DNA of 64,000 nucleotides from Pedobacter zeaxanthinifaciens (GTDB taxonomy: Bacteria > Bacteroidota > Bacteroidia > Sphingobacteriales > Sphingobacteriaceae): assembly GCF_003313335.1 (NCBI RefSeq), contig NZ_QMHP01000009.1, forward strand, positions 62,001 to 126,000, read 5' to 3'. The notes beneath the pieces were generated by a model. It did no database searches. It had not been told where the DNA came from and worked only from the letters and a program-made list of their open reading frames with translations. A program made the position numbers and the translations under genes. Below, piece by piece: positions 62,464 to 62,929 of this stretch. How positions within the stretch are numbered: position 1 is the stretch's first letter; each line of letters opens with the position of its first letter.

Positions 62464-62505
62464 TTGATCTATGGTTTTTTGATTTAGAATTTCGATTTGC
62501 TTTTA

Positions 62506-62586
62506 GCCTAGTTTTTAGGCATAACTGATGTTGCGTACCCTATTTTGGTAGGGCCTTCCTAATTGTTAGAAAATTACAAGTGGAAG
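62506..62586 (-). other. Three consecutive hairpins in the metY leader
   Basis: Read on the - strand: CTTCC...GGAAG with an inner TTGT/ACAA stem (62586-62555), CCCTA...TAGGG (62553-62538) and GCCTA...TAGGC (62520-62506). None has a T-run after it, so a simple transcription terminator is not seen. They lie between the upstream ORF stop and the metY start and could govern ribosome access. Confidence 0.4.
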
Positions 62587-62596
62587 ATTTTTGATT

Positions 62597-62731
62597 TTAG
62601 TACATGCAAATGCACATACAAATCATCAACTGCATGGCAACGCAATTGCTAATTCCGAAATCGAAAAAAGGAGTTCTGTCTACCTGCTTAGGAAATGTAC
62701 TGTCTAAAGAAATTGAATTAATTAGTTTCAT
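62597..62731 (-). CDS. Met/Cys-rich upstream ORF (putative leader peptide)
   Basis: A 44-codon ORF with ATG at 62731, 7 nt after the riboswitch, and TAA at 62599-62597. It reads MKLINSISLDSTFPKQVDRT, PFFDFGISN, then CVAMQLMICMCICMY. The last 15 residues hold four Met and four Cys. No other frame gives a similar peptide. Its position between a SAM sensor and metY suggests a leader peptide whose translation reports the supply of charged tRNA-Met and tRNA-Cys. It is unlike an ordinary protein (no fold expected). The alternating TGCAT/TGTATG bases could also produce such codons by chance, so the call is tentative. Confidence 0.5.
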   Translation of the reverse strand: MKLINSISLDSTFPKQVDRTPFFDFGISNCVAMQLMICMCICMY

Positions 62732-62738
62732 CTTATTA

Positions 62739-62847
62739 ATTTATATCTCCAAAATGCACCATGCTTTTTGGTCAGGAATTGGCACCTTCTCTTTTTGAGG
62801 GTTGCCAGTGGGTCTGTGAGCCTGTCTCTCGCCACTTCTTTATAAAT
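62739..62847 (-). promoter_or_regulatory. SAM-I (S-box) riboswitch upstream of metY
   Basis: On the - strand the 109-nt segment has P1 (ATTTATA with TATAAAT), P2 (AGTGG with CCACT) with the kink-turn-like CGAGAGA, and the conserved CTGGCAACC. P3 (ACCCTC with GAGAAGGT) is followed by GGTGCCAATTCC, the hallmark of S-box aptamers. P4 (CCAAAAAGCA with TGCATTTTGG) comes next, then AGA and the 3' side of P1. The aptamer is complete. High SAM should close P1, whose 3' arm lies just before the upstream ORF start. No terminator hairpin with a T-run follows directly, so control is probably at translation or acts further downstream. Confidence 0.9.
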
Positions 62848-62898
62848 CAATAGCCTAAATTGGGTATTGACTTTTATTTGGTTCTCCAAATAATGTTT

Positions 62899-62929
62899 CA
62901 AATGTAAGATGTTTTTTGTTTTGTTGCAA
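62899..62929 (-). promoter_or_regulatory. Promoter of the SAM riboswitch-metY operon
   Basis: On the - strand TTG (62929-62927) and TACATTTG (62906-62899) match the Bacteroidota elements with a 20-nt gap. Transcription should start near 62891, giving a leader of about 430 nt before metY. Confidence 0.65.

Follow-up and report, generated by a model that had tools for sequence, protein, structure and literature searches.

Do the SAM riboswitch upstream of metY in Pedobacter zeaxanthinifaciens and the short open reading frame (ORF) next to it, with its terminal run of cysteine and methionine codons, make up a single regulatory leader, and if so, which signals would that leader read? The locus lies on the minus strand of the 64,000-nt stretch of DNA analysed here (the window), where NCBIfam matches identify metY as the first gene in the order metY-metX-hom (Table 1). 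A candidate promoter, TTTG-N20-TACATTTG, was recognized by eye 5′ of the SAM-I aptamer, and we take its TTTG to be the -33 element. The second half of this site, TACATTTG, matches the sigma-A consensus TAnnTTTG as it is quoted in the accessible part of an earlier study (PMC9723704).

The metY leader matches the covariance model of the SAM-I family (RF00162) over the full model (positions 1-108) with a score of 74.1 bits, compared with the gathering threshold of 44.4, and by this score is a member of the family; the complete S-box aptamer proposed in the first-pass annotation is thus borne out. The 44-codon ORF that the same annotation placed close behind the aptamer is found there, with 6 nt between the aptamer end (62738) and the leader ATG (62731). 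The encoded peptide ends in CVAMQLMICMCICMY, followed by TAA, and indeed contains four Cys and four Met among its last 15 residues. A short ORF with a Cys-rich end is not rare in itself, given that the window includes six other ORFs of 12-80 codons with at least three Cys among the last 12 residues; it is therefore the fixed place behind the aptamer and the evolutionary conservation that carry weight.

Table 1. Coordinates of the metY locus and its leader in the window
Feature	Coordinates	Strand	Basis
hom, homoserine dehydrogenase	58717..59958	-	NF004976, 306 bits (cut-off 205)
metX-like homoserine O-acetyltransferase	60061..61119	-	best match TIGR01392, under its curated cut-off
metY, O-acetylhomoserine (O-acetylserine) sulfhydrylase	61162..62463	-	NCBIfam TIGR01326, 686 bits (cut-off 495)
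Third hairpin, GCCTA/TAGGC	62506-62520	-	by eye; outside the conserved genus element
Hairpin H3 (GYCCY/RGGRU), 62554-62537, with conserved UACGC tail	62533..62554	-	covarying pairs
Hairpin H2 (CUUCC/GGAAG)	62555..62586	-	RNAalifold; nearly invariant in 34 aligned leaders
44-codon leader ORF MKLINSISLDSTFPKQVDRTPFFDFGISNCVAMQLMICMCICMY, ATG to TAA	62597..62731	-	ORF listing; equivalent ORF in 130/130 genus loci
Cys/Met-rich putative regulatory codons at leader end	62600..62644	-	sequence comparison
Hairpin H1 over the Cys/Met codons	62602..62619	-	RNAalifold, 34 leaders
SAM-I (S-box) riboswitch aptamer; P1 arms 62848-62841 and 62745-62738	62738..62848	-	RF00162
Candidate promoter: TTTG (62930-62927), 20 nt, TACATTTG (62906-62899)	62899..62930	-	by eye

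Two further observations concern the surroundings of the leader. A serine O-acetyltransferase-like gene (63127-63945) is divergent from metY and shares the intergenic region with the metY leader. A sulfate-assimilation cluster is located more than 55 kb away from metY, at positions 2-4949 of the window, with PAPS_reduct domains in two ORFs and a CysN-like GTPase recognized by eye; its first gene is cut by the window edge.

Within Pedobacter, MetY is present in 135 of the 145 species covered, and the upstream region was read in 130 of these, five loci being left out (G132, G145 and G084, each with a partial metY, as well as G127 and G085). Each of the 130 metY leaders contains the aptamer core motif at a distance of 247-356 nt from metY, invariably with a short ORF behind it. 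At least three Cys occupy the last 14 residues of 123 of these leaders, the other seven having two Cys together with two to five Met, and at least one Met is present among the last ten residues in 129. The ends are usually of the type TCMCCCIQ and persist while the N-termini and lengths (24-57 codons) vary, 127 of the 130 peptides being distinct. When leaders were shuffled, 0.14% of 13,453 frames had at least three Cys among the last ten residues, as opposed to 113 of the 130 real leaders. In the variable part, the codon-position bias is mild (2106, 1905 and 2974 changes at positions 1, 2 and 3, respectively; 467 pairs from 40 leaders), and the third bases of the terminal codons are biased, with counts of TGT 93, TGC 99, TGT 100 and TGC 100 at four positions among the 118 genus leaders that pass a motif filter. 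The comparison proposed in the first-pass annotation, namely that the frame and the Met/Cys codons should be kept in relatives while other bases change, thus gives a strongly positive outcome. Its view that Met and Cys could both be sensed has to be shaded: both residues are kept, but Cys is the stronger conserved signal and Met the weaker one, because across the genus Cys accounts for 36% of the last ten residues and Met for 16%.

The peptide sequence itself is a poor guide to these leaders. A peptide-only search of 59 relatives yielded one good match (G033, E = 1.8e-7), the others being weak (E of 0.009 or higher), and at least two of the weak matches (G017:C5 and G003:C2) are metY leaders. 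The leader peptide changes too fast for such a search, and metY and the aptamer were therefore used as anchors. In three species of the genus with no close MetY (G100, G016 and G022), the SAM-I aptamer, the leader and the RNA element behind it precede metX-hom, the Cys/Met end being intact in two of these leaders and decayed in the third; hence what is conserved is the control of a pathway rather than that of one gene. Natural decay of the element is seen at two loci: in a Pedobacter MAG (L099 / L375), hairpins H2 and H3 are lost by eye and the leader end is altered to NCCCSSIC, and in L189 both hairpins look decayed, also by eye.

Beyond the genus, 42 of the 71 listed metY loci from other genera of the family were examined. 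The aptamer motif is present in 35 of them, and in 28 of these 35 it is accompanied by an ORF whose last 14 residues include at least three Cys (the exceptions being L232, L270, L284, L286, L287, L289 and L293); the seven loci lacking the motif showed neither an Rfam SAM match nor a Cys-ended ORF. No N-terminus is shared among the leaders of the family, and the order of residues at their ends varies (NMCMCCCC, CMCMCCCCC, YCCMCMNLNCCC, YMCCCCR and FICCCCC), as it does in further ends from other genera (CMCCCCC, MCCCCR, CCMCMNLNCCC and ICCCCC). Two leaders, L269 and L276, both with Rfam SAM matches, end identically in FICCCCC and encode all five Cys with the opposite synonymous codon. Over 36 leader pairs, the ratio of synonymous to non-synonymous changes at Cys codons was 76 to 75, in a set of pairs that share members and were chosen for similar ends, so that only the L269/L276 example is used here. 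Among 24 metY loci from other families of the class, an Rfam SAM match lies upstream in 12, and nine of these 12 have a Cys-run leader (the misses are L233, L234 and L248). A Met/Cys-rich short ORF with no SAM-I before metY was found at six class loci (L236, L238, L243, L244, L249 and L250), which implies that the two parts are not obligately linked.

Some of the loci outside the genus deserve separate mention. The ORFs of L249 and L250 (family f54) encode 26-aa Met/Cys-rich peptides upstream of metY, and L250 has a SAM-II match of 49.2 bits further upstream, on the opposite strand. In genus g39 (L232, L286, L289 and L293), the metY leader ORF and its spacing are kept, with ends in RMR or MRMC and few Cys, possibly reflecting a switch or loss of the sensed amino acid.

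The position of the leader start is kept in most loci as well. The first-pass annotation located the 3′ arm of P1 just ahead of the ORF start, and this arrangement recurs outside the genus, where 18 of the 21 loci mapped with the covariance model, from several families, have the next AUG 7-15 nt past the end of the Rfam aptamer. Lineages without a Cys run are included among these (L232, L233, L234, L270, L286, L289 and L293), and so is L284, which has no leader and in which the AUG of metY itself stands 10 nt behind the aptamer. The three exceptions are L241, with an AUG after 2 nt, L242, with an AUG that overlaps the aptamer end, and L248, with no AUG. Inside the genus, the leader starts 56-58 nt behind the aptamer core in 120 of the 130 loci. 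With the leader AUG immediately past the 3′ arm of P1, binding of SAM could control whether the leader is translated. In this connection, the accessible part of a study on F. johnsoniae reports that its phylum is without Shine-Dalgarno sequences, that the RNA from -20 to +20 relative to start codons has less structure and that structure in this region tunes initiation (PMC6847099).

The association with the leader was compared with other SAM-I sites using a control rule, under which an ATG is located 38-80 nt behind the core and the last 14 residues include three Cys. Among the other SAM aptamers of the genus, 31 were compared, namely the second one of this genome (L002, which precedes a metH-like ORF) and the 30 best-scoring ones, and none conforms to the rule. 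The same holds for all 70 SAM aptamers sampled over the phylum (the 30 best-scoring and 40 hand-picked to spread over genera), many of which precede metY or metH by eye; this sample left out the loci already examined (including the tandems L229 and L230, the genus tandems and the misses L232, L233, L234 and L248), and the zero out of 70 describes other SAM-I sites without the leader and is not a measure of tandem frequency. No core was recognized in L426, one of the 70. Under a looser rule, an ORF with a Cys run appears 95 nt past the core in L464, and L461 shows a Met-rich end that includes two Cys. On these counts, neither SAM-I riboswitches nor metY genes carry such a leader as a general rule. 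As a separate observation, eight SAM-I sites of the genus (L033, L035, L036, L044, L046, L047, L058 and L062), located before long ORFs that by eye resemble TonB-type receptors, have a short ORF about 116 nt behind the aptamer; this ORF comprises 24 codons and ends in FRMRxxC at six of the eight sites, and at L046 and L058 it comprises 30-32 codons and has a different end. These ORFs possibly represent a further leader peptide or RNA element.

A DNA pattern in which the SAM-I core is combined with an ATG and three Cys codons, regardless of frame, was searched in one genome for each of 84,980 species and gave at least 120 stretches. The titles of 119 of the 120 stretches listed name Bacteroidota and one (L298) names no taxon; three less familiar genera among the listed titles were looked up and belong to this phylum. 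The listed taxa include Mucilaginibacter, Pontibacter, Pedobacter, Fulvivirga, Adhaeribacter, Rufibacter, Hymenobacter, Saprospiraceae and Cyclobacteriaceae, among others. In all 120 listed stretches, the Cys run is read in frame within an ORF whose start lies behind the aptamer core and whose stop codon falls at most eight residues past the last CCC; the pattern imposed the three Cys codons, but neither the frame nor a stop close by, nor the taxon or the gene. Four listed loci checked against Rfam (L298, L302, L369 and L383) are all SAM-I. The last ten residues of the 120 listed leaders, a set chosen for Cys codons, are 58% Cys and 9% Met. The aptamer-leader tandem is widespread in Bacteroidota.

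Downstream of the leader, the first long ORF is at least 70% identical to the MetY of the window in 71 of the 120 listed stretches and 35-38% identical over 317-409 residues in six; four more matches are at chance level (E > 1), and no long ORF was called in eight stretches. Ten downstream proteins from listed tandem loci were scanned against protein families. They include a MetX-like protein below the curated cut-offs (L302), a PAPS reductase (cysH; L383), a NIR_SIR reductase (sulfite/nitrite reductase; L369) and an O-succinylhomoserine sulfhydrylase-like enzyme below the cut-off (L296), and with such genes downstream, the tandems fit sulfur metabolism. Five of the remaining proteins (a SusC-type receptor, OsmC, PhyH, a RimK-like ligase and an M14 peptidase) do not belong to sulfur metabolism by name, and the tenth is a thioredoxin-reductase-like protein. 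Three Pontibacter genomes give two or three listed tandem loci each, indicating that in some lineages the element is used more than once per genome.

The three hairpins noted earlier between the ORF and metY are all recovered, H2 and H3 within the element conserved in the genus and GCCTA/TAGGC outside it. H2 begins about 9 nt past the leader stop, and H3 with its UACGC tail ends about 70 nt before metY. H3 includes a covarying pair that is C-G in 21 and U-A in 13 of 34 leaders, and the third-base bias of the Cys/Met codons in the genus is such as H1 would require. A covariance model of the element behind the leader (R1) scores 89.2 bits in this genome, with the next match at 18.0; over 251 genomes of the family, 57 match at E of 0.1 or less, 52 of them in the genus and five outside it at E of 0.03-0.09. 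Outside the genus, the Cys run persists without the H1-H3 element. Rfam at relaxed thresholds gave no family for H1-H3, the one match, to SL1, being at chance level, and a search by eye for a sequence that could pair with the UACGC tail gave none. Two candidate structures were rejected: a pairing of the last leader codons with the H2 loop (UUGUAU/UUGCAU), which by eye fits some species and fails in others, and an inverted repeat of the window that places the leader AUG in a loop and that, by eye, is not conserved in the other large group of leaders.

A terminator-like hairpin within the first 130 nt behind the leader was found in only three of the 130 genus loci and four of the 81 named pattern-scan loci, and the two sites given by the terminator scan of the window fall within the leader ORF or on the opposite strand. 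Masking of the metY start by the leader received no support in a model, in which ribosome occupancy shifts the unpaired probability of the metY start region only from 0.57 to 0.66 (125 loci). In the same model, H1 is weak (0.15) and in a register other than that given by RNAalifold; H2 and H3 are conserved, and modelling found no consistent alternative pairing. Because U-tract terminators are rare and the hairpins are about 70 nt away from metY, elongation control or RNA stability is favoured over start masking, and our preferred guess for the output is control of transcription elongation (e.g., by Rho) or of RNA stability.

Comparison of the sequences suggests that the locus is probably a two-input leader, in which SAM would be read through the aptamer and charged tRNA-Cys, with tRNA-Met in a lesser role, through the leader ORF. 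Binding of SAM would close P1, the 3′ arm of which ends a few nucleotides before the leader start codon, and we infer that the closed P1 hinders leader initiation in a phylum that starts translation without Shine-Dalgarno sequences. When SAM is low, the leader ORF would be translated and, as the conservation of the codons suggests, a scarcity of charged tRNA-Cys (or tRNA-Met) would stall the ribosome at the Cys/Met run. The position of the ribosome would then affect the fold or protection of the RNA behind the ORF (H1-H3 in the genus) and, through it, whether metY-metX-hom is expressed. A cysteine input would be sensible because MetY belongs to the TIGR01326 family and the serine O-acetyltransferase-like gene is divergent beside metY. 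The more specific proposal that SAM gates a leader sensing charged tRNA, which would amount to a hierarchical AND gate over sulfur assimilation and homocysteine synthesis in many Bacteroidota, appears to us about evenly balanced between right and wrong.

The aptamer and the Cys leader could also be independent and additive, with the riboswitch exerting no control over leader translation. We regard this as possible and rather unlikely. It would readily accommodate the six loci in which Met/Cys leaders occur at metY without SAM-I as well as those in which SAM-I occurs without such a leader (L233, L234, L248 and L284), and it has a precedent in the tandem attenuators of Salmonella mgtCBR, which act independently and additively according to the accessible part of the report (PMC3641672). 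Independent sensors need no fixed distance between P1 and the AUG, however, and yet a distance of 7-15 nt is kept in 18 of the 21 mapped loci, across several families, and in L284 it is the AUG of metY itself that is found at this spacing.

The remaining alternatives concern the leader ORF itself. The genus end CMCCC(I/M) is very uniform, as might be expected of a nascent-chain arrest peptide or a redox- or metal-sensing Cys peptide, as opposed to a counter of charged tRNA. Arrest peptides require specific residues, whereas the ends of different genera have only their Cys (Met) content in common, and neither order nor context, which makes this explanation improbable. Still harder to sustain is the notion that only the RNA matters, such that H1-H2-H3 would bind a protein or ligand and the Cys codons would be a by-product of H1: the third bases of the Cys/Met codons are strongly biased and H3 covaries, but outside the genus, where the R1 matches are weak, the Cys run is nonetheless kept with other codons. 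That the ORF encodes a small Cys-rich protein with a function of its own could be argued from the fact that the frame stays open, for 24-57 codons, at each of the 130 genus loci; given that neither the N-terminus nor the length is kept, that 127 of the 130 peptides are distinct and that the codon-position bias is mild, this seems very improbable indeed.

The two-input leader that we favour combines features of known systems and differs from each of them. It resembles other members of the SAM-I family (RF00162) in the covariance-model match and the location before sulfur amino-acid genes, but the aptamer is followed by the start of a Cys/Met leader ORF and neither by a terminator nor by the start of the gene itself. 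With attenuators of the trp type, it shares a leader that is rich near its end in codons for amino acids of the pathway (123 of 130 leaders in the genus and 28 of the 35 family loci with the aptamer motif) and differs from them in that, as a rule, there is no intrinsic terminator. The polycysteine leader ORFs of mycobacteria are reportedly described as leaderless in the title of a 2020 paper by Canestrari. The metY leader is not leaderless in this sense, given that a 111-nt SAM aptamer on the same strand and a promoter-like site precede the ORF in the predicted transcript. Leaders with Cys codons are known in Actinobacteria, including the polycysteine leader ORFs of Mycobacterium cys operons (Seliverstov 2005, PMC1262725); as far as the accessible text goes, these are alike in the Cys run near the stop, the sulfur genes behind it and the lack of an obvious intrinsic terminator, and belong to another phylum, whereas the ORF described here comes after a SAM aptamer and is succeeded by hairpins. 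The uORFC-8-2 motif upstream of cysS in Rhodobacterales similarly consists of an upstream ORF with tandem Cys codons within a stem, but unlike the metY leader it ends in an intrinsic terminator, and the accessible part of the paper mentions no riboswitch (PMC8632094). In Streptomyces lividans, the Met/Cys-rich leader peptide metL (MSTTSDRTPATEATTTPGARCMCRRMCAF) precedes a methionine gene, metNIQ, also with no typical terminator; unlike the metY leader, its transcript is leaderless, and no SAM aptamer is mentioned in the accessible text (PMC8079986).

Two sensors in one mRNA leader are likewise on record, in the sources as far as accessible: Bacillus clausii metE combines SAM-I and AdoCbl riboswitches (PMC2258182) and Salmonella mgtCBR combines ATP and proline ORFs (PMC3641672). 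The former consists of two riboswitches and the latter of two ORFs, whereas here a metabolite riboswitch abuts a putative charged-tRNA leader ORF. For Bacteroidota, the accessible parts of the literature provide a general hint of leader-peptide attenuation in flavobacteria (PMC9723704) and short ORFs in the long 5′ UTRs of B. thetaiotaomicron (PMC7366714). No description of a SAM riboswitch followed by a Cys/Met leader ORF was found in the accessible open-licence literature, although one may exist. As far as can be judged from sequences, the composite of two known kinds of sensor is real and conserved, and this combination of a SAM aptamer and a Cys leader is apparently undescribed so far.

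Both SAM riboswitches and amino-acid leader peptides are textbook material, and the apparent novelty lies in their direct juxtaposition. RNA regulation in Bacteroidota is little studied, and the tandem, which precedes several sulfur genes in this phylum, provides a sequence rule for finding many such tiny ORFs; its logic, whether AND, OR or additive, is testable with simple reporters. If the proposed reading is true, one RNA would connect the cysteine arm of sulfur metabolism with its methionine/SAM arm.
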